From the NCBI GenBank assembly GCA_016188575.1, contig JACPHN010000124.1, positions 1-64,000 on the forward strand: a stretch of 64,000 bases of DNA. The letters are read 5' to 3'. A program made the position numbers and the translations under genes. Below, piece by piece: positions 3,876 through 13,503 of this stretch. The stretch comes from Candidatus Schekmanbacteria bacterium. Its GTDB lineage: Bacteria > CSSED10-310 > JACPHN01. The notes under the pieces were generated by a model. That model had not been told where the DNA came from, made no database searches, and saw nothing but the letters and a program-made list of their open reading frames with translations. Every line of letters begins with the position of its first letter. Within the stretch, counting starts at the first letter, position 1.

Positions 3876-5819
3876 ATGGGTAACGGCGAAAGCAAGTGGT
3901 TGATTGCAATCGTCTGCGTGCTCTGCGTGCTGTCGCTGTCTCAGCTCATGAACACCTGCGCGATCGATCGCCTCGAGCGTCAGGTCATCCGCGTCGCCCG
4001 CGCCCTCGAAGCGCAGTCGGGCGGCGGTGGCAGGATGCGCTCACCGGTAGCGACGGGCGCCGCCGGGGCTGCTGCCGCCAATCAGCCGGGAGCCTCCACC
4101 GGCATCGAAGTCACCGGCTGGGGCGGGCGCAAGGCCGAGATCCTCCACGTCGAAGGCGCGGTCCCCAATCCACCGTTCCTCTTGGCCGACAAGCCCAAGC
4201 CCCAAAACGACACCTACGTCAACCGTCGCATCAGCCCCCCCGGTTCGCTCAACACCTACGCCACAAACGAGAGCGATACCGACCAGATCGCAAAAAATGT
4301 GCTTGGAGGTCTGGTGATGAGCGACCCGGACCGCCCCTCCGAGGTTCAACCGGCGCTGGCAACCCGTTGGGAAGTCTCCGAGGACAAGCTCAAATACACG
4401 TATCACCTGCGCAAGGGCGCCCAATTCGCGGACGGACGGCCGTTCACCGCCGCCGACGTGCTCTTCTCGTTTGCCGTGGTGCGCGACCCCGAGGTCAACG
4501 CCGAGCACCTGCGCAGCAAGTTTGACGACGTCGAGGAGATGCTCGCTCCTGACCCCCAAACCGTGGTCGTCAAATACCGCCGGCGCTACTGGAAAGGGCT
4601 CTATTCAGTTGGCTATAACCTGCGAATCCTGAACAAGGGCTGGTACGAAGAGCAGCTCCCGAAGTGGGCGGAACGCCTCGGGATCACCGAGCACGCCATT
4701 GAGCCCGGAAAGCCTGGTTTCGGGAAAGTCTTCAACAAGATCTCCGTCCCCTGCCCCGGGACGGGGCCCTACTACTTTGCGGCCGATCGCTACCTGCCGG
4801 AAACGTTCGTGGAGCTCGTGCAAAACCCATTTTACTACGGGATTCAGGTGAAGCCGGACTGGTACAACTTCTCCAGGCTTCGCTGGGTGTTCATCGCCGA
4901 CGCCGTGGCCGCGTTCGAAGAGTTCCGCAAGCAGCGATTCGATATCACCGTCGTCGACAAGAATTCGTGGGATGACGAGTACAGCAAGGACCCGACGATC
5001 ACCTCGATCGCCAATTACTACCAGTACGACCACACCGGTCTCGGCTACTCGTACATCCAGTGGAACTGCCGTCACGCGCCCTTCGACGACGCTCGGGTGC
5101 GGCGTGCGATGACGCACCTCACCAATCGGCAGTGGATTCTGGATGAGGTTGAGCGCGGTGGAGGCACGGTTGCGGCGTTTCCGTGGAAGCGCATTTATGC
5201 GACGTACTCGAACGATATTGCGCCGCTCGCCTTCGACATCGAGGCGGCGCGGGCGTTGCTGGCCGAGGCGGGTTGGAAGGACTCCGACGGTGACGGCGTG
5301 CTCGACCGCGACGGCAAGCGGTTCGAGCTCGAGCTCAAGGTGGGCTCGACGCGCCGCTTCTTCCAGCAGGTGGGGGCGGTCCTCAAGGACGCCTGCGACA
5401 AGGTGGGAATTCGCATGACGCTGCGCACTCTCGAGTGGTCGACCTTCATCCAGGACTTTTACGAACGGCGCTTCGACGCCGCCTGCCTGTACGCTTCCCC
5501 CGAGGACCCGTGGATGGACAACTACGACGAATACCACAGCTCCCAGGACGTCCCCCGGGGCGGGAACTCCGGCGGTTGGCACCACGGCCGGGCGGATGAG
5601 CTACTCGAAGCCATGCGCGTGGAGTTCGATGCGGACAAGCGTGCCGAAATGGCCCACGACTTCAACCGGATCTTCGCCGCCGAGCAGCCGCAGACGCTGC
5701 TTTTGCATACGCTCGTGAGCGTGCTCCAGCACAAGCGGATACGCGATGGCAAGGTGCGCCCGAGCGGCTTGCAGTTTTTCGACGTCTGGGTCGACCCGCA
5801 AGACGTTCTGTATAAGTAA
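3876..5819 (+). CDS. Peptide ABC transporter substrate-binding protein (family 5, YejA-like)
   Basis: A 647-residue extracytoplasmic solute-binding protein of the oligopeptide family. An N-terminal hydrophobic segment (about residues 8-26) is followed by a short predicted coiled coil (DRLERQVIRVARALEAQ), so the protein may be membrane-anchored rather than released. Family 5 features follow: EVQPALATRWEVSED, then LRKGAQFADGRPFTAADVLFS, and later FDDARVRRAMTHL. A GGGAGG box precedes ATG 3876. Two permease genes follow with a 2-bp gap and a GTGA overlap, so it delivers peptides or peptide-like compounds to them. The permeases resemble YejB and YejE, hence the YejA-like label, but the substrate cannot be read from sequence. 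Confidence 0.85.
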   Translation: MGNGESKWLIAIVCVLCVLSLSQLMNTCAIDRLERQVIRVARALEAQSGGGGRMRSPVATGAAGAAAANQPGASTGIEVTGWGGRKAEILHVEGAVPNPPFLLADKPKPQNDTYVNRRISPPGSLNTYATNESDTDQIAKNVLGGLVMSDPDRPSEVQPALATRWEVSEDKLKYTYHLRKGAQFADGRPFTAADVLFSFAVVRDPEVNAEHLRSKFDDVEEMLAPDPQTVVVKYRRRYWKGLYSVGYNLRILNKGWYEEQLPKWAERLGITEHAIEPGKPGFGKVFNKISVPCPGTGPYYFAADRYLPETFVELVQNPFYYGIQVKPDWYNFSRLRWVFIADAVAAFEEFRKQRFDITVVDKNSWDDEYSKDPTITSIANYYQYDHTGLGYSYIQWNCRHAPFDDARVRRAMTHLTNRQWILDEVERGGGTVAAFPWKRIYATYSNDIAPLAFDIEAARALLAEAGWKDSDGDGVLDRDGKRFELELKVGSTRRFFQQVGAVLKDACDKVGIRMTLRTLEWSTFIQDFYERRFDAACLYASPEDPWMDNYDEYHSSQDVPRGGNSGGWHHGRADELLEAMRVEFDADKRAEMAHDFNRIFAAEQPQTLLLHTLVSVLQHKRIRDGKVRPSGLQFFDVWVDPQDVLYK

Positions 5820-5821
5820 CC

Positions 5822-7810
5822 ATGCTTTCCCACGCCATCCGCAGCATCCTGTCGATGATTCCCACACTGCTTGGAATTACCTTGGTGACTTTCCTGATTA
5901 TCAGCTTGGCACCGGGGGATCCCGTGGCAACGAGTTTTGGCGCGGGCGCGGGAGAACCGGGTGCCGAGGCCGGGGCGGGGCAGAGCCGTGAGCGCCTGGC
6001 GGATGCCATCAAGGCAAAAAAGAAGCTGCTCGGAATGGTGCGAGAGGACCACGCCGTGCGGGTGTGGTCAGGCCCCGATGCGCCCGTCGCCGCGGTGGAC
6101 GACCGCACCGGCGCCGCGGCGATGAGTGCGCTAGGCGCGTTCAGGGAGCTCCCCGGCTGGGCTTATGCGCTCGCGCCGCGGGCGAACGACCAGCTCGTCG
6201 TTGGGGGCGAGGCGGGCTATGTCCTGATCGCTGACCTCGTCACTGGCGCGGTGCAGCGGGAGCTCGCGGGCGGGCTGCAGCGGATCGCGAGCGTGGCGAC
6301 CGCGTCCACCGGCGACCTCATCGCGGCCGCGGACATTGACGGTCGCATCGCCCTGTGGCGCGGCGAGGCCGTCAAGCCCGCGGCGGTGCTGGAACCCCTC
6401 GGCAAGCCGGTGCGGAGCCTCGCCTTCCTGCCGGACGGCAGCCGCTTGCTCAGCGCCTGTGACGATGGGCTTATCCGCCTGCATCAGGCGGACACCGGAG
6501 CCGTAATGAAGACGTATTCCGGGCACATCGCCGGCGTCTACTCCCTCGCGGTGAGCGCCGACGGGACGGGTTTCTACTCCGCGGGGTACGATCGCGTTCT
6601 CCGGCACTGGCGCTGGGTAGGCGTCGGCGGGGAAGCCGCGCCGCGGCCGCGATTCGTTCATGGGCAAGCGGTCAACGCCCTGGCGCTTTCCCCGGATGGC
6701 TCCCTGCTGGCCACGGGTAGCGACGACCGCGTGCTACGCGTCTTTGCCGTGCCGGACCTGGCCGGCGACGCCGCCGAGGTCGCGCCGGCGGCGGAGCTTG
6801 CCGGCCACTACCGCGAGATTACCGCCGTGGCTTTCGGCGCCGAGTCGCGGACGCTGTTCAGCGGCAGCCGCGACGAGACAGTCCGCTCCTGGGACCTCCG
6901 AGCGCGGCGGCAAGTCGGCCAGACCACCGTGGCCACCGGTGTCGTCCATGCGCTCATCGGCGACCCCGCCGACCCCGCAGCGGTCCGTTCCGCCGCCAGT
7001 GGATGGGTCAGCGTGCCCATCATCAGCCGCTATCTGAAATGGCTGAGGCGCGTCGTTACCTTCGACTTCGACCGCTCGTTCGTCGACGACCGCAAGGTCA
7101 TGGAGAAGATCGGCGCGGCGCTCCCGGTGACCCTGGGCCTGAACGCGATCGCCCTGGTGCTCATCTATGCGGTGTCGATCCCGCTTGGCATCACCGCTGC
7201 GGTGCGCCGAGGCACGGCGTACGACCACGTTTCTTCGGTCGTGCTCTTTGTGCTCTATTCAATTCCGAACTTCTGGCTCGCCACGCTGCTGATCATGGGG
7301 TTATCGTCCAAGCAGACCCTGGACATCCTCCCGTCTGTTGGCCTGCACGATATCGGCGAGCAGGACTTGTCGTTCTTGCCGTGGCTGGCTGACTTCGGCT
7401 TGCACCTGGTGTTGCCGATCGCCTGCATGGTTTACGCCGGGTTTGCGAGCCTGTCCCGCTACGCCCGCACGACGATGCTCGAAACGATCGGGCAGGACTA
7501 CATTCGCACGGCGCGGGCAAAGGGGCTGCCGGAAAGCCTGGTCCTTTACAAGCACGCCCTGCGCAACTCGCTCATCACGATCGTCACGTTGGCCGCCAAT
7601 CTCCTGCCGGCGATGATCGGCGGGTCGGTGATCGTCGAGTACATTTTCAGTATCAACGGCATGGGCAAGCTCGGCTTCGACGCGATCCTGGCGCGCGATT
7701 ACCCCGTCATCATGGCGATCACCACGTTCAGCGCGTTTCTCACGCTGCTCGGCATCCTGCTGTCGGACTTCCTGTACACCGTGGTCGATCCGAGGATCAC
7801 GCACAAGTGA
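5822..7810 (+). CDS. YejB/DppB-like ABC permease with a WD40 beta-propeller inserted in periplasmic loop 1
   Basis: Residues 1-30 form the first transmembrane helix and end with the family motif LAPGDP. From about residue 434 the standard inner-membrane permease continues: the coupling-helix region DYIRTARAKGLPE, then IEYIFSINGMG-type and VVDPRI C-terminal motifs. Between them sits about 320 extra residues (75-395) made of WD40-like repeats: repeated S/G-DD-RVLRVF or D-ETVRSWDL ends, each after a hydrophobic A-F-PDG-L strand (for example at 200-222, 241-263, 285-308, 333-357). The first piece, DHAVRVWSG (76-84), can close the ring with 372-393, giving about seven blades. Family members are normally 310-370 residues long. 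The gene begins 2 bp after the binding-protein stop. Topology would put the propeller in the periplasm, where it might bind the solute-binding protein or substrate. Confidence 0.9.
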   Translation: MLSHAIRSILSMIPTLLGITLVTFLIISLAPGDPVATSFGAGAGEPGAEAGAGQSRERLADAIKAKKKLLGMVREDHAVRVWSGPDAPVAAVDDRTGAAAMSALGAFRELPGWAYALAPRANDQLVVGGEAGYVLIADLVTGAVQRELAGGLQRIASVATASTGDLIAAADIDGRIALWRGEAVKPAAVLEPLGKPVRSLAFLPDGSRLLSACDDGLIRLHQADTGAVMKTYSGHIAGVYSLAVSADGTGFYSAGYDRVLRHWRWVGVGGEAAPRPRFVHGQAVNALALSPDGSLLATGSDDRVLRVFAVPDLAGDAAEVAPAAELAGHYREITAVAFGAESRTLFSGSRDETVRSWDLRARRQVGQTTVATGVVHALIGDPADPAAVRSAASGWVSVPIISRYLKWLRRVVTFDFDRSFVDDRKVMEKIGAALPVTLGLNAIALVLIYAVSIPLGITAAVRRGTAYDHVSSVVLFVLYSIPNFWLATLLIMGLSSKQTLDILPSVGLHDIGEQDLSFLPWLADFGLHLVLPIACMVYAGFASLSRYARTTMLETIGQDYIRTARAKGLPESLVLYKHALRNSLITIVTLAANLLPAMIGGSVIVEYIFSINGMGKLGFDAILARDYPVIMAITTFSAFLTLLGILLSDFLYTVVDPRITHK

Positions 7811-8937
7811 GAGACCAGGTCGCAAAGGAATCGCCGCACCCGAGGCGGCCGTCGCCGCAAGACTACTGGTCTATCGTGCGCGCCCAGTTGCGGCGAAACA
7901 TCGGCGGCATGATCGGCTTCTGGATCATTGTGGTGCTGGTGCTCACGGCGCTTGCCGCTCCGCTGCTCGCTAATGACCGCCCCATTGTCGCCGTCTATCG
8001 AGGAGAAGTCGTCTTTCCTTCACTCAAGGCCTACGTTGACTTGTGGGTGCCGTGGAAGAGCTTGCGATACAGCTTGAAAAGCTGGCAGTGGAACGTCGAC
8101 CCGCCATACTTTCCGTTCTCGGAGCACTATCCGCAGCTCGCCGGCAAGAGCTGGAAGGAAGTCGACGGCGGCGCGGAGCTGACGTTTGCCATCTGGCCGC
8201 CGCTGCGCTGGAATCCGAACCAGTTCGATGCCACCGCGCTGCGGCTCTTGCCATCGGCGAGCAGTGGGCACTATTTCGGCACCGACGACCAGGGGAGAGA
8301 TATCCTCGCCCGACTCATCCATGGCACGGTCGTGGCCCTATCGGTGGGCGTGATTTCGGTGGGCATATCGGCCATTATCGGCATCGCGCTGGGGCTGCTT
8401 GCCGGCTATGTGGGCGGCGCCGTCGACGTGTTGCTTTCTCGGGTCACCGAGGTGGTCATGTGTTTTCCCACGTTCTTCTTGATCATCGCCGTCATCGCTT
8501 TTCTCGAGCCGTCGATGATCAACATCATGCTCGTCCTCGGCCTGGTTGGCTGGACCGGCAAGTTCCGCCTGATCCGCGGCGAGGTCTTGCGGTGCCGCGG
8601 TCTGGAGTACGTGGTTGCGGCCGAGGCGATGGGTGTGCCGGCGTGGCGGATCATGGTAAAGCAAATCCTGCCGAATGCCATCGCGCCTGTGTTTGTGTCG
8701 ATTGCGTTCGGCATCGCGTCCGCAGTGTTGACCGAGACGAGCCTGTCGTTTCTGGGGTTCGGAGATCCGACGGTTCCGTCCTGGGGTGAAATCGTCAGTC
8801 AGGGTCGCGCGTACGTGTCGCAGGGGTTATGGCACCTGACGGTTTTTCCCGGGATCGCCATTTTCGTCACCCTCACCGCTTTCAATCTTTTTGGCCAGGG
8901 CATGCGCGACGCCATGGATCCCAAGCTGCGAGCGTAG
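7807..8937 (+). CDS. YejE/DppC-like ABC transporter permease
   Basis: A 376-residue peptide-transporter permease that pairs with the upstream propeller-bearing subunit. GTG 7807 overlaps the preceding TGA (GTGA), so translation is coupled. The N terminus has one transmembrane helix (about 34-54), then a long periplasmic segment with NDRPI and WPPLRWNP, features shared with YejE, followed by HYFGTDDQGRDILARL, which precedes the membrane core. The cytoplasmic EAA-type loop is seen as LEYVVAAEAMGVP, and SWGEIVSQGR is near the end. No ATP-binding subunit (DppD/F or YejF type) follows within the window. The transporter must therefore borrow an ATPase encoded elsewhere or lack one. Confidence 0.9.
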   Translation: MRDQVAKESPHPRRPSPQDYWSIVRAQLRRNIGGMIGFWIIVVLVLTALAAPLLANDRPIVAVYRGEVVFPSLKAYVDLWVPWKSLRYSLKSWQWNVDPPYFPFSEHYPQLAGKSWKEVDGGAELTFAIWPPLRWNPNQFDATALRLLPSASSGHYFGTDDQGRDILARLIHGTVVALSVGVISVGISAIIGIALGLLAGYVGGAVDVLLSRVTEVVMCFPTFFLIIAVIAFLEPSMINIMLVLGLVGWTGKFRLIRGEVLRCRGLEYVVAAEAMGVPAWRIMVKQILPNAIAPVFVSIAFGIASAVLTETSLSFLGFGDPTVPSWGEIVSQGRAYVSQGLWHLTVFPGIAIFVTLTAFNLFGQGMRDAMDPKLRA

Positions 8938-9105: not shown

Positions 9106-10746
9106 ATGACAACGATAGGGAGCGAGCTGCGACCAACACCGGCTACCGTTACTCCGGACCTTGTGGGCACCGGGGTAGACGCTGCGGGAGGCACGGGGCC
9201 TGCCGTCGAAGTCGAGGGCGCCGCTGGCGCCGCGCCTGCGGCTGCGGCGGACGCCTACGAGGAGGCCCGCGCCGGTGCGACGGGGGCACTCGCCGCGGCG
9301 CCGGCAGAGGGGGCCACGGCAGCCGCAGCGGCCAGTCCGCTGGCGGGAAACGCCGAGTTTACTCAGGCGGGTCGCACTGTTGACCTGGACGATATTCGCG
9401 CCGGCCGCGCCACCATGGGCGTCGGTGCCCGCGGAGAGGCCGTCGAGCGCCTGCAGCGCGCACTTCGCGACAACGGCGCGGACATCGCGCCCGATGGTCA
9501 GTTTGGCTCCCGCCAAACCAAGCCGGCCCTGCAGGCGTATCAGCGCAGCCACGGTTTGCCGCCGACCGGAAGCCTGGACAGAGCGACTCTGGCTGCGCTC
9601 GACGGCACTCCCGCTCCGGACGAGCCCCCGCATGGGCTACAAAATGCCCGCTTTGCGACCGACCCGACGCTCCAGCAAGTCCTCGAGGGCACGAAGAAAT
9701 TGCGCTCCGGTGCCAGTGGCCCGGCCGTCACCGCCGTTCAACAAGCGCTCTCCGATCTCGGTTTCGAGCTCCCCGCGTATGGTCCGGACGGTGGATTCGG
9801 CGGCGAGACGGTGACCGCTCTCCGGCGTTTCCAGCGGACCAATGGCCTGCCGCAGACCGGCCAAGTTGACAGTGAAACGCTGCGCAAGCTCGATGAGCTC
9901 GCGCCCCCCCCGGCCCAACGCGTCGATCGCTCTCCCGAATACGACCGACTTTTCGAAGATGGCACTCTGGACGTCGGCATCGCCATCGGCTACGACGAGA
10001 GCGGTTGGGGGCCTCATGCGCGACGCGACGTGCTTTCAGGATTGCGGCGGTTGGAGTATTCCGAAGTGCGGAGAGCCGACCATACCGACGAGCAGTTGCG
10101 CGACATGGGTATTGATCCGGGATCGTTTCAGGACGGCGTCCAGATCTTCCACCGTAAGCTCGAGCATAACGGGCAAGAAGTGAATTCCGTGGTGCGGTTG
10201 ATGGACGAGGACACCCCAAACGCCGTCGATCGCTTCAGCGGCTCCCTGCAGAACGCGGACGTCGTGATGTACGGAGGCCATGCGCGGTACGGCACCGGGC
10301 CTGACTTCGACGAAAAGGACTCGACGGCCGGAAATTTCGTGCTCGGCGTCAACTCCTCGTTGCATCGGTCGGGCAAGCTCAAGCCCGGCTACGACGCGCA
10401 CATGAACCAGATCTTGCGCGGGCAGCCGAATCGGCTCGAGGGGCTGGATCTCCCCGAGGATCGCTATCAGTTGTGGTACTTCAACGGCTGCACGACGCTC
10501 AACTACCTCGACGAAGTTCGCGGTCTAGCGCAGGGGAAGGACGATACCAATCTCGACGTCGTCGGCTCCAGGCGGCCGCTACTGTGGAATCACGTCGGCA
10601 CCAATCTCGTGACCTTCCTGGAGGGGTTGCAGAACCGCAATACGATCGGCCAGATCACCTCGAGTCTGCAGACCAACGAGGAGGGTACGGCGGGCGCCTT
10701 CTACACGGACGGATTTGGGGACAACCGCTACGGAGCGCGCAACTGA
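9106..10746 (+). CDS. Peptidoglycan-binding protein with C-terminal caspase-fold-like His/Cys domain
   Basis: The 546-residue product starts with a low-complexity Ala/Gly-rich segment (1-100). Two PG_binding_1 modules follow, at about 107-167 (GARGEAVERLQRAL, then SLDRATLAALD) and 202-263 (VTAVQQALSDLGF, then QVDSETLRKLD). The C-terminal domain has VVMYGGHARYG (His392) and WYFNGCTTLNY (Cys462), each ending a hydrophobic strand, as in clan CD peptidases. Catalysis is unproven. No standard signal peptide is visible, so export is uncertain even though wall binding is predicted. A GGAGG box lies 9 bp before ATG. The gene lies 168 bp after the permeases and could be co-expressed with them. Confidence 0.7.
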   Translation: MTTIGSELRPTPATVTPDLVGTGVDAAGGTGPAVEVEGAAGAAPAAAADAYEEARAGATGALAAAPAEGATAAAAASPLAGNAEFTQAGRTVDLDDIRAGRATMGVGARGEAVERLQRALRDNGADIAPDGQFGSRQTKPALQAYQRSHGLPPTGSLDRATLAALDGTPAPDEPPHGLQNARFATDPTLQQVLEGTKKLRSGASGPAVTAVQQALSDLGFELPAYGPDGGFGGETVTALRRFQRTNGLPQTGQVDSETLRKLDELAPPPAQRVDRSPEYDRLFEDGTLDVGIAIGYDESGWGPHARRDVLSGLRRLEYSEVRRADHTDEQLRDMGIDPGSFQDGVQIFHRKLEHNGQEVNSVVRLMDEDTPNAVDRFSGSLQNADVVMYGGHARYGTGPDFDEKDSTAGNFVLGVNSSLHRSGKLKPGYDAHMNQILRGQPNRLEGLDLPEDRYQLWYFNGCTTLNYLDEVRGLAQGKDDTNLDVVGSRRPLLWNHVGTNLVTFLEGLQNRNTIGQITSSLQTNEEGTAGAFYTDGFGDNRYGARN

Positions 10747-10776
10747 GCGGATGCCAGGTGGCGGCGGAGGCAATCG

Positions 10777-11526
10777 ATGGGGTGGGTCAAACGAGCGCTC
10801 GCACTGGTGCTCGTGGCGACCGTCCCGGGAGTCGAGGGGTTTGGGTTCTGGTGCCCGCGCGGTGTTGCGGCGGGCAGTGGAGATAAGAAGATGCAACAAG
10901 CAGTAAGAACGGCCGAAGATGATCGCGCCGCAGTCAAGGATCGAGTCGCCGCGATCGCGGCGCTCGGCGAGGTAGACGCGGCGGAATCCGTGCCTTTGTT
11001 GATGAAGCTGTTGACGTCGATGGAGCCGGACATTACCGCCGCGGCGGTGCAGGCGCTGGCGCGGCACGGGGCTCCGGCGATGCTGTCGGGGCGGCTCGCG
11101 ACCGGCAGCGCCAGTGAGCGCCGCGCTGCGGCCTTTGCGCTGCGGTATTTTCCAACGGCGTCGACGGCAGGATCCCTGCGGCGCGCCCTGTCCGATGCCA
11201 ATGCCGAGGTCCGGTTCACGGCGGCATGGTCAATCGGCGTGCTGGCGATCCGCTTGCAGGACGAGGCGCTGATTCGCGAGCTCGTGGAGGCACTGGCGGG
11301 GTTGCTGGTCGATGGCAGCGTGGACGTGCGCTTTTGGGCAGCCTGGGCCATCGGCACGGGCACGCAGCGCCTGGGGCGGGCGACCAGCGGACGCCTGGCG
11401 GAGGCTTCCGCGAACACCGTTTCCCGCGCCCGCCAGGCGCTCGAGCGACGCGTCGTCACCGAGACCGACCCCGACGTGAGGTCGGAGCTCGAGCGATCCC
11501 TGCGGAAGATCGGCCGCGTGAACTGA
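10777..11526 (+). CDS. Exported HEAT-repeat protein
   Basis: A 249-residue protein with an N-terminal signal-like stretch (about 5-35) and then consecutive HEAT-like helical repeats: DRVAAIAALGEV, PDITAAAVQALARHG, ASERRAAAFALRYF, AEVRFTAAWSIGVLA and VDVRFWAAWAIGTG. Such repeats form a superhelical protein-binding surface, and no catalytic motif is seen. The gene follows the peptidoglycan-binding protein by 30 bp, with a GGCGGAGG box before ATG, and is probably co-transcribed with it. The partner is unknown. Confidence 0.75.
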   Translation: MGWVKRALALVLVATVPGVEGFGFWCPRGVAAGSGDKKMQQAVRTAEDDRAAVKDRVAAIAALGEVDAAESVPLLMKLLTSMEPDITAAAVQALARHGAPAMLSGRLATGSASERRAAAFALRYFPTASTAGSLRRALSDANAEVRFTAAWSIGVLAIRLQDEALIRELVEALAGLLVDGSVDVRFWAAWAIGTGTQRLGRATSGRLAEASANTVSRARQALERRVVTETDPDVRSELERSLRKIGRVN

Positions 11527-11540
11527 AACCGGCGGTGGCG

Positions 11541-11570
11541 GTGGGGGAGGAGCGGCTGCTCCTCTCACCC
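11541..11570. terminator. Hairpin between convergent genes
   Basis: GAGGAGC (11547-11553) and GCTCCTC (11558-11564) pair around a GGCT loop, with further flanking G/C pairing. It lies between the HEAT-repeat gene and the convergent gspG. No T-run follows, so function as a terminator is tentative. Confidence 0.35.
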
Positions 11571-11615
11571 GCCCCGAACTGCGTTCGGGGATTTTCTTGC
11601 CGGGCATGCCGCTGC

Positions 11616-12062
11616 TCAGCCGCAGACCTCCGAGCAGTACTCCTCGTCTCCTTTGGCGCACACACGGTAGTCGCTGCCGCCGGCTTCCAGCTCGTATGTG
11701 TAGGGCGTGGCCCACGGATCTACGGGGACTTCCTTGGCTTTTCTGAGGTATGGCCCGCCCCAGTTGCCGATCCCGTCGTCCGCAGTTAGACCCGCAAGCG
11801 ACTGAGGATAGCGCCCGGTGTCGAGGTGATACGCCTCGATGGCGTTTCCGATGGTGCCGATCTCCCCCTTTGCGGCGTTGCACCTGGCTTTGCGGGATTG
11901 CGAGCTCACCTTGATGGCGACCATGCTGCTCAGGAGGCCCATGATGGCCACCACGACCATGATTTCCATGAGGCTGAAGCCGGCCTGGGCGCGAGCTCGC
12001 GAGGTGTTCCGGCCGCCGGCGGCAGGTGATGTGGAAGTTGACGCGCACTGGATCGATGTCAT
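11616..12062 (-). CDS. gspG: Type II secretion major pseudopilin GspG-like
   Basis: A 148-residue type IV pilin-like protein. The prepilin peptidase site is QAG|FSLMEIMVVVAIMGLL, with Phe29 as mature residue 1 and the conserved Glu at +5 (Glu33), followed by the N-terminal hydrophobic helix. The C-terminal region keeps GspG features: GNAIEAYHLDTGRYP, DDGIGNWGGPYL and VPVDPWATPYTYE (calcium-site loop region). ATG 12062 is chosen because AAGGAG stands 7 bp upstream; the frame is open further upstream to 12164. No other secretion genes neighbour it, so it is an orphan pseudopilin that would need a distant Gsp machine or a pilus-like system. Confidence 0.85.
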   Translation of the reverse strand: MTSIQCASTSTSPAAGGRNTSRARAQAGFSLMEIMVVVAIMGLLSSMVAIKVSSQSRKARCNAAKGEIGTIGNAIEAYHLDTGRYPQSLAGLTADDGIGNWGGPYLRKAKEVPVDPWATPYTYELEAGGSDYRVCAKGDEEYCSEVCG

Positions 12063-12237
12063 GTCGCACTCCTTCGGATAGAGGCTTTCTGCGTGATCGC
12101 TGTTACACGAGAAGATGGACATCGTCCCCGGAATCATGTTCCCTGGGTTGCCTGACAGGCTCACGGACGACCGTCCCTCGGCGGCGCGAGGAGCGCGCGA
12201 CTGCCAGCGCCGATGAGCAGAGCTGCGCGTGTCCGCG

Positions 12238-13473
12238 CTAGTCCTGCACGAGGCGATCGGAAAGTTCCCGCACGCGGCCCGCTCCGTATTCGAGTAGCGC
12301 CCATAGCAGACGGGTCGCGATCTCCGATTCGGCGCGGGTCAGAGACAGAAAATCGTCGCGGCGGATCGCCAGCAGCGTCGTCGCTTCTTGCGCGACGACG
12401 GCGGCGGATCGCGGCGCGTCGTCGATCAGCGCCAGCTCGCCGAAGTGTCCTCCCGGCCCGATCGTCGTCAGCACCACGCCGCGCAGCTCCACGCGCACCG
12501 CGCCGGCGATGACGATGTAGAGCTTGTCGGCGGCGTCGCCTGCGGCGAACACGGCCTGGCCGGCGCGAAAGCTCTCTGCATTCATGATTTTCCCGACGCG
12601 CAGTCGTTCCTGCTCGTTGAGCTCGCGAAACAGGAAAAGCGTTTCGAGACGTTCCAGCGTTTCGAGCCAGTCGCGCTCCTGAGGCGCAGCCGTGGGAGTC
12701 GGCTGAATCGCCACGAGGACCAGGCTCATGGTGCCGAATACCGGGCGCTCGCCGAGGGCCTCGAGCTTTTTCGCCAGCGCCGTCACGGCCTCGTCCGGGT
12801 CCTTGACGGCGGCAGCGGCGAGGAAGTCGGACTTCCCGAGGTAGCGTGTGAGGTTCGAGGATCCGATCACGAGCACATCGTGGTCCATGAGGTCCACGAC
12901 CGCCGTGTCGACGCGGAGCGCCGGCGAAAGGCCGAATGCCGCGCACACTTCGGAGGCCACCATGAGCTGGATGCGGCCGGTGTCCGAAACGCGGCCTTGC
13001 TCGGCGAGATGCCGGTGGAGTGTGTGGGGTTCATTGAGCGCTCGCACGCGGTCGCCGCGGACGAGGAACAGGCGACAGGTACCGGCGTGAGCGATATACG
13101 CGCTCTGCTCAAAGCAGAAAACGCCGGCGGCGGAAGTTGCGGTGCCGCGTCTCCAGGGGGCGACGTGGGTGGAGTGAAGAAGATGAGCATTGGTTTCCGA
13201 CAGGATGATCTCGATTGCCGCCAGGATCTGGCGCCGTAGGTCCGCCGCCGCGCTCGCGTCGACCCGGGAAAGCTGGTGTCGCAGCCGCTGTGCGCCCTGG
13301 TGAAGCTGGTCCAGGCACAGCAAGGACGCGTGCGCCCCTCGGGGGGGGTCGGCGAGGCCGTCGGCGACGGCAAAGAAGCCCAGATCTTCGTCCAGGATGA
13401 AGTGGTCGTTTCGCGGTTGCCGGGCTCCTCCCTGGGGCGGGAGCCGCAAGCTGGCAGCTACGGTCTGGACCAT
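12238..13473 (-). CDS. PP2C-like phosphatase fused to a cyclic-nucleotide-binding domain
   Basis: The 411-residue product has an N-terminal PPM/PP2C-type domain (about 1-255) and a C-terminal cNMP-binding domain (about 275-395). PP2C traces include the early Asn-Asp pair, GFFAVADGLADPP (motif VADG, but the usual GG after it is missing), GTATSAAGVF and AYIAHAGTCRLFLVR. Metal-binding residues are therefore partly altered and activity is uncertain. The cNMP domain shows FRAGQAVFAAGDAADKLYIV and the phosphate-cassette-like FGELALIDDAPRSAAV. The frame also opens at TTG 13488, but ATG 13473 has a GGAG nearby. It lies 30 bp downstream of parA and probably forms one operon with CHAD and parA, where it could tune a Ser/Thr phosphorylation step. 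Confidence 0.8.
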   Translation of the reverse strand: MVQTVAASLRLPPQGGARQPRNDHFILDEDLGFFAVADGLADPPRGAHASLLCLDQLHQGAQRLRHQLSRVDASAAADLRRQILAAIEIILSETNAHLLHSTHVAPWRRGTATSAAGVFCFEQSAYIAHAGTCRLFLVRGDRVRALNEPHTLHRHLAEQGRVSDTGRIQLMVASEVCAAFGLSPALRVDTAVVDLMDHDVLVIGSSNLTRYLGKSDFLAAAAVKDPDEAVTALAKKLEALGERPVFGTMSLVLVAIQPTPTAAPQERDWLETLERLETLFLFRELNEQERLRVGKIMNAESFRAGQAVFAAGDAADKLYIVIAGAVRVELRGVVLTTIGPGGHFGELALIDDAPRSAAVVAQEATTLLAIRRDDFLSLTRAESEIATRLLWALLEYGAGRVRELSDRLVQD

Positions 13474-13503
13474 GTGGGGGTACTCCAACTGACAGTGCGG
13501 CGA

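Follow-up and report, generated by a model that had tools for sequence, protein, structure and literature searches.

Gene organization of the WD40-inserted permease locus

The window analyzed here is a 64,000-nucleotide stretch of contig JACPHN010000124.1 from a Candidatus Schekmanbacteria bacterium. Its plus strand carries a 662-codon reading frame at 5822–7810, open throughout, between the genes for a solute-binding protein (SBP) and a YejE/DppC-like permease (Table 1). The product consists, in order, of TM1 with the LAPGDP motif, a helix, a WD40 domain at residues 73–397 and a complete TM2–TM6 permease core. Pfam detected WD40 in four stretches (E 7.7e-34; 115.1 bits against a cut-off of 27) and BPD_transp_1 (PF00528) at residues 453–660 (E 1.1e-39; 136.5 bits against a cut-off of 26.4). 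The product is a type I ABC importer permease of the BPD_transp_1 superfamily. Its RTARAKGL coupling motif (EAA-like, RTA) is positioned between TM4 and TM5, helices 518–556 and 571–609 of the full-length model. A first-pass annotation made from the letters alone had described TM1, LAPGDP, WD40-like repeats and a membrane core, and Pfam, the alignment and the structural models bear this layout out. Its boundaries for the propeller, 6044–7006 (residues 75–395), shift slightly, as the models set the ring at about residues 73–397 (6038–7012).

No NCBIfam profile matched the fusion protein above its curated cut-off. The YejB profile (PRK15133) aligns residues 384–660 to positions 82–360 of 364 with 224.4 bits against a cut-off of 445, and the DppB profile (PRK10914) gives 166.2 bits against 590. 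The core is complete with respect to YejB, as previously described, but because the score lies under the curated cut-off the fusion is classed as YejB-like only.

The SBP begins with a hydrophobic segment, a Cys that falls within NTC or VTC in most orthologs, and a DRLExQVI stretch resembling a coiled coil, with no obvious cleavable signal. This type of anchor is common to the fused-family orthologs that reach the N-terminus and is similar in the unfused Methylobacter system L038. Elsewhere in the window, 9106–10746, adjoining the transporter operon, encodes a protein with two PG_binding_1 domains and an unassigned C-terminal region, and 12238–13488 on the minus strand encodes a protein in which a PP2C-like phosphatase is joined to a cyclic-nucleotide-binding domain.

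Table 1. Coordinates of the transporter genes and of features within the WD40-inserted permease (window positions; residues are those of the 662 aa product).
Feature	Position	Strand	Details
SBP gene, upstream partner	3876..5819	+	647 aa; SBP_bac_5 PF00496 E 3.1e-66
WD40-inserted permease gene	5822..7810	+	662 aa; start 2 bases past SBP stop
TM1, residues 2-29	5825..5908	+	helix 2-29 in model
LAPGDP after TM1	5906-5923	+	conserved in alignment
Gly-rich linker, residues 37-54, replacing usual scoop loop	5930..5983	+	mean pairwise identity 0.36, n=16
Scoop helix 2 equivalent with AIKAKKKLLG, helix residues 53-69	5978..6028	+	model and alignment
Blade 7 strands c and d, residues 73-106, predicted N-terminal closure half	6038..6139	+	domain-model strands 22-25, 28-32, 48-55
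Six complete WD40 blades, about residues 110-369	6149..6928	+	Pfam WD40 and models
Blade 7 strands a and b, residues 374-397, predicted C-terminal closure half	6941..7012	+	domain-model strands 323-329, 336-346
Helix alpha-3 equivalent RYLKWL, residues 400-413, canonical core start	7019..7060	+	DppB profile alignment
TM2-TM6 permease core, residues 426-662	7097..7807	+	PF00528 E 1.1e-39
Cytoplasmic coupling motif DYIRTARAKGL in permease core	7496-7528	+	conserved, 8/8 alignment rows
YejE/DppC-like partner permease gene	7807..8937	+	376 aa; PF00528 E 5.4e-26, OppC_N E 5.1e-8; start overlaps fusion stop by 4 bases

The inserted domain is predicted to be a closed seven-bladed ring

AlphaFold2 modeling of residues 52–416 alone produced a closed seven-bladed ring with a pLDDT of 89.3 and a pTM of 0.89. 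In the full-length model, built from eight sequences (the window and L031–L037), the ring has a pLDDT of about 85–95, the TM2–TM6 core is of low confidence and the whole-model mean is 68.7. The domain model, whose numbering converts to window residues by adding 51, contains six four-stranded blades, and blade 7 combines C-terminal strands 323–329 and 336–346 with N-terminal strands 28–32 and 48–55. These correspond to predicted strands at window residues 374–380 and 387–397, and 79–83 and 99–106. The ring is therefore predicted to close by a ‘2–2 Velcro’, with two C-terminal and two N-terminal strands in blade 7, a pairing read from strand order and from comparison with permutants. The first-pass annotation had described an N-terminal strand that could close the ring; closure is upheld by the prediction, but the single strand is ruled out by the domain model, which has two.

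Structural comparison with VIA-align identified 7bif, the designed propeller v22WRAP-T, as the best match among solved structures (Z 38.2, rmsd 2.2, 285 of 286 residues). The versions of this design that are permuted to other closures scored lower: v13 (7big) gave Z 36.7 over 276 residues and v31 (7bid) Z 35.9 over 278. Rows differing by less than 1 in Z are treated as tied, and both gaps to 7bif exceed 1. According to the WRAP-T paper, 2–2 closure is the least stable form and hardly ever occurs naturally (PMC8458387). It is apparently tolerable here because the permease holds both ends of the ring.

The ring lies at the predicted end of the scoop in the first, probably periplasmic loop

In the fused family the sequence runs from AIKAKKKLLGM through the ring to RYLKWL...DFDRSF. 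The full-length model predicts helices after TM1 at residues 34–40 and 53–69, and A65, K66, K67, L69, L70 and G71 of the junction helix are identical in 16/16 fusions. The NCBIfam DppB profile aligns window residues 397–662 to positions 59–338 of 339. For E. coli DppB, published work places a scoop motif at residues 32–62, between TM1 and alpha-3, where it enters the DppA cleft, and records that the scoop-loop double mutant E41A+R42A was without growth in a complementation assay (PMC12136057). Since the profile resumes at position 59 at window residue 397 and the DppB scoop occupies 32–62, the alignment and models place the ring between scoop helix 2, ending at about residue 70, and alpha-3, starting at about 400, with linkers of a few residues on each side. 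From family topology we infer that the TM1–TM2 loop carrying the ring is periplasmic, because the coupling motif between TM4 and TM5 must be cytoplasmic, facing the ATPases. The periplasmic placement given in the first-pass annotation agrees with the alignment, the ring models and this topology.

Measured between the PGD and DF motifs, loop 1 spans 348–387 residues in 16/16 fusions, compared to 44–82 residues in the 37 unfused permeases measured. This count includes L064 and L070 through their second, unfused operon, and leaves out the unfused L012, L023, L085 and L086, whose motifs were not matched, and the contig-end fragments L013/L082 and L084.

The fusion is an old family in three phylum-level groups

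A search of related genomes, one of the checks named in the first-pass annotation, recovered the full-length fusion in 15 further genomes at 48–58% identity, ten of the Myxococcota group and five of the Planctomycetota group, making 16 with the window. The gene order SBP, fusion, YejE/DppC-like permease is the same in 16/16 loci, and no further neighboring gene is conserved in all of them (the other clusters present at many loci are other frames over the three genes). In one locus, L065 (G527; 10024–12402, minus strand), the SBP gene of the fused operon is split over two frames by a frameshift or sequencing error. That two adjacent genes were joined by assembly error, which the first-pass annotation had put forward as grounds for rejecting the fusion, or by a misread frame, is refuted by the presence of the full-length protein in 15 further genomes. 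The same junctions recur in 16 separate genomes, and nothing was found in favor of an artefact.

A contig scan with exact peptide patterns returned 12 loci in all, only seven of them full-length (L031–L037) and five with the permease part alone. Sampling of the Myxococcota group, the phylum of G060 (locus L031), found the fusion in 10/377 genomes, five of them already known (5/372 among the new ones). In the Planctomycetota group, the phylum of G063 (locus L034), it occurs in 5/392, including two already known (3/390 among the new ones). Both samplings required E <= 1e-90 and scored at most three candidates per genome, so that diverged fusions may escape. Within the window's own phylum the fusion is present in one of eight genomes, that of the window itself. 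No other full-length match appeared among the matches listed in a separate 60-genome search, nor any fusion among the 3 and 4 genomes searched in two small phyla, each home to a genome with unfused relatives, and none of 966 matching plasmid records covers 80% of the query at a single location.

In a tree of 61 permease cores, the 16 fused cores form one clade with an SH-aLRT of 99. The tree was a quick IQ-TREE run with SH-aLRT as its only support measure, built without L040 and L041, which nearly duplicate L042. Because the fused cores form one clade, a single insertion of the WD40 ring into the permease is the simplest reading. The window core groups with L059 of the Myxococcota group (SH-aLRT 89), and for this reason the fusion may have reached the window's lineage by transfer.

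Other inserts occupy the same loop in related permeases

Five related permeases have a long loop 1 without WD40: L017 (356 residues), L029 (237), L018 (224), L087 (195) and L078 (186). Their inserts, of about 120–285 residues, are located in the same loop of YejB-like permeases. Genes for an SBP and a YejE-like permease adjoin in L080 (the place of L017), L081 (that of L029) and L087, and a YejE-like gene and ATPases adjoin in L078 and L083 (the place of L018). By eye these inserts resemble HEAT repeats, but Pfam had no match to them at E 0.1 and we make no such assignment. The insert of L013, which is cut by a contig end, is homologous to that of L017 (E 3e-12); for the other pairs homology was not clear (phmmer E of 0.008 at best). 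On the permease-core tree the mixed-insert group requires at least four changes.

Several further long frames (L073–L076 and L079) were rejected as inserts, being instead a C subunit or SBP read on in frame, or an untrimmed upstream frame. Two of them, L073 and L074, are frames of about 675 aa with an N-terminal DppB-type core and an in-frame DppC-like part, an apparent B–C fusion.

Unrelated inserts in the same loop of relatives suggest that the loop-1 site tolerates or uses inserted domains. A tentative and somewhat doubtful extension is that loop 1 of YejB-like permeases could serve as a natural socket for exchangeable adaptor domains, the WD40 ring in one clade and the other inserts elsewhere. 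Held between scoop helix 2 and alpha-3, such domains would determine the SBP or accessory protein that docks and couple docking to the gate, and one ATPase pair could then serve several tailored permeases.

ATPases are probably supplied from outside the fused operon

No ATPase gene was found next in line with the SBP, fusion and YejE-like genes at the 16 loci, of which some are on short contigs (under 10 kb for 3 of the 15 outside the window). In the Planctomycetota group, a convergent neighbor carries genes for oligopeptide ATPases at three loci (L064, L070 and L071); at L064 and L070 the neighbor is an unfused SBP-B-C-D-F operon. Four oligo_HPY ATPase matches occur in the window's genome, two of them on contig C38 in an operon with an SBP and permeases and the others as a pair on C29 (L095, 7302–9761), with no SBP or permease match within the 18 kb taken. 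An ATPase probably serves the fused operon in trans, and the orphan C29 pair is the likely engine of the transporter.

The propeller varies faster than the core and covaries with the SBP

Mean pairwise identity among the 16 fusions is 0.68 in TM1, 0.36 in the Gly-rich linker, 0.66 in the junction helix, 0.35 in the propeller, 0.56 in the alpha-3 region and 0.69 in TM2–TM6, with 0.61 for the SBP and 0.62 for the YejE-like partner. Weak constraint would account for the low propeller identity as well. This identity also speaks for a reading in which the ring is a structural decoration of no specific function, tolerated since both its ends leave one blade adjacent to each other. Against this account, which we consider very unlikely, an intact WD40 signature is kept in 16 genomes of three phylum-level groups with no internal stop in any fusion, and the junction helix is nearly invariant.

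With the fusion core and YejE-like distances regressed out, propeller and SBP distances retain a partial r of 0.57, a value reached in 1 of 2000 permutations; YejE-like and propeller distances, given the core and SBP, give r -0.03. When the YejE core and periplasmic loop were separated, the propeller–SBP value was 0.59 (0/1000 permutations as high; 0.46 with ranks), compared to 0.23 for the propeller and YejE loop (46/1000) and 0.15 for the SBP and YejE loop (123/1000). The propeller–SBP value ranged from 0.48 to 0.61 in four reduced sets and from 0.46 to 0.65 on leaving one out. The control, the YejE periplasmic loop against the propeller, correlates in two reduced sets at 0.40 (3/1000) and 0.53 (2/1000). 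The sample is 16 related sequences, in which the SBP rows of L058, L065 and L067 are incomplete. The covariation is suggestive of contact between the propeller and SBP. Shared rate may be another reading, because less conserved proteins give better distances and the YejE loop correlates in two subsets.

A candidate docking platform for the SBP

Together, these results lead us to propose, with a probability of about one half, that a WD40 ring was inserted once into the B subunit of a type I ABC peptide importer of the YejB/DppB superfamily, and that it would act there as a rigid platform for SBP docking and gating. The ring would be held in the periplasm at both ends of one blade by linkers of a few residues. 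By analogy with the family, its likely contact region is the side of the SBP dock, where it would form a rigid wall and bind the membrane-anchored SBP beside the translocation pore. It may then orient the SBP over the pore, fixing the docking position, and may help to seal or gate the cavity on peptide release, as proposed for the DppB scoop. A junction helix that is nearly invariant (0.66) while the ring varies (0.35) favors such a platform. A membrane-anchored SBP, on the other hand, is not confined to fusions, as the similar SBP N-terminus of the unfused L038 indicates.

WD40 rings are general protein-interaction scaffolds, and the ring could instead recruit another envelope partner, such as a peptidase, cell-wall enzyme, chaperone or second receptor, so that substrate is produced beside the importer and the SBP uses the canonical scoop only. 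Besides this scaffold character, much faster variation of the ring than of the core and the unrelated inserts at the same site in relatives, as expected where adaptors vary, fit recruitment. We nevertheless consider it unlikely, as outside the operon no neighboring gene recurs at every locus and the covariation is with the SBP.

A further possibility is ligand binding by the ring itself, which could pre-capture peptide or some other ligand, or sense it and gate transport in response. There is a precedent in AztD, a periplasmic propeller that passes zinc to an SBP (PMC6689063). In the present ring no catalytic or metal site is seen by eye, and the invariant residues are mostly those of the WD40 scaffold (G, H, D and W), which makes ligand binding quite improbable. 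Among the roles offered in the first-pass annotation, docking and gating gain indirect support from the insertion at the scoop end and the propeller–SBP covariation, and direct substrate binding gains none.

ABC importers pose a mechanical question, still open, in how the SBP locates its permease and fires it. A compact and rigid ring seated right at the SBP-contacting element amounts to a natural experiment on that step; it is deletable or swappable and would be a fiducial for cryo-EM. The family also offers a natural, though predicted, case of the WD40 2–2 closure that the design work calls almost never natural.

Comparison with known systems

No description of a propeller-bearing ABC permease was found in the open-licence literature, in agreement with the earlier statement that no such transporter was described. 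The parts are individually known, and it is for their arrangement that this literature gave no account. Measured against YejABEF and DppABCDF, the SBP and second permease are in the operon in 16/16 loci, and an operon ATPase is absent. YejB of the YejABEF microcin C/peptide importer has a homologous core and likewise an SBP and YejE-like partner in one operon, but it carries no propeller, and the fused operon has no YejF-like ATPase. E. coli DppB of DppABCDF (8z1v; PMC12136057) also has a homologous core, and the same loop holds its SBP-binding scoop; that region is about 30 residues long, whereas the PGD-to-DF span in the fusions is 348–387.

For the ring itself, WRAP-T v22 (7bif; PMC8458387) is alike in its seven WD40 blades and 2–2 closure, as predicted for the ring, and differs in being a designed, free-standing protein. 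AztD resembles it in being a periplasmic beta-propeller that serves an ABC importer, to whose SBP it hands zinc, but it is a separate zinc-binding protein and not part of a permease (PMC6689063).

Given the role generally ascribed to it, the P2 loop of MalF would be the nearest functional parallel to the ring. It is another loop, of another fold, in another permease family than the WD40-bearing permease. As is predicted for the ring, P2 is a large domain that a type I importer permease extends into the periplasm, and in MalFGK2-E it is located around the SBP MalE (PMC8134467).
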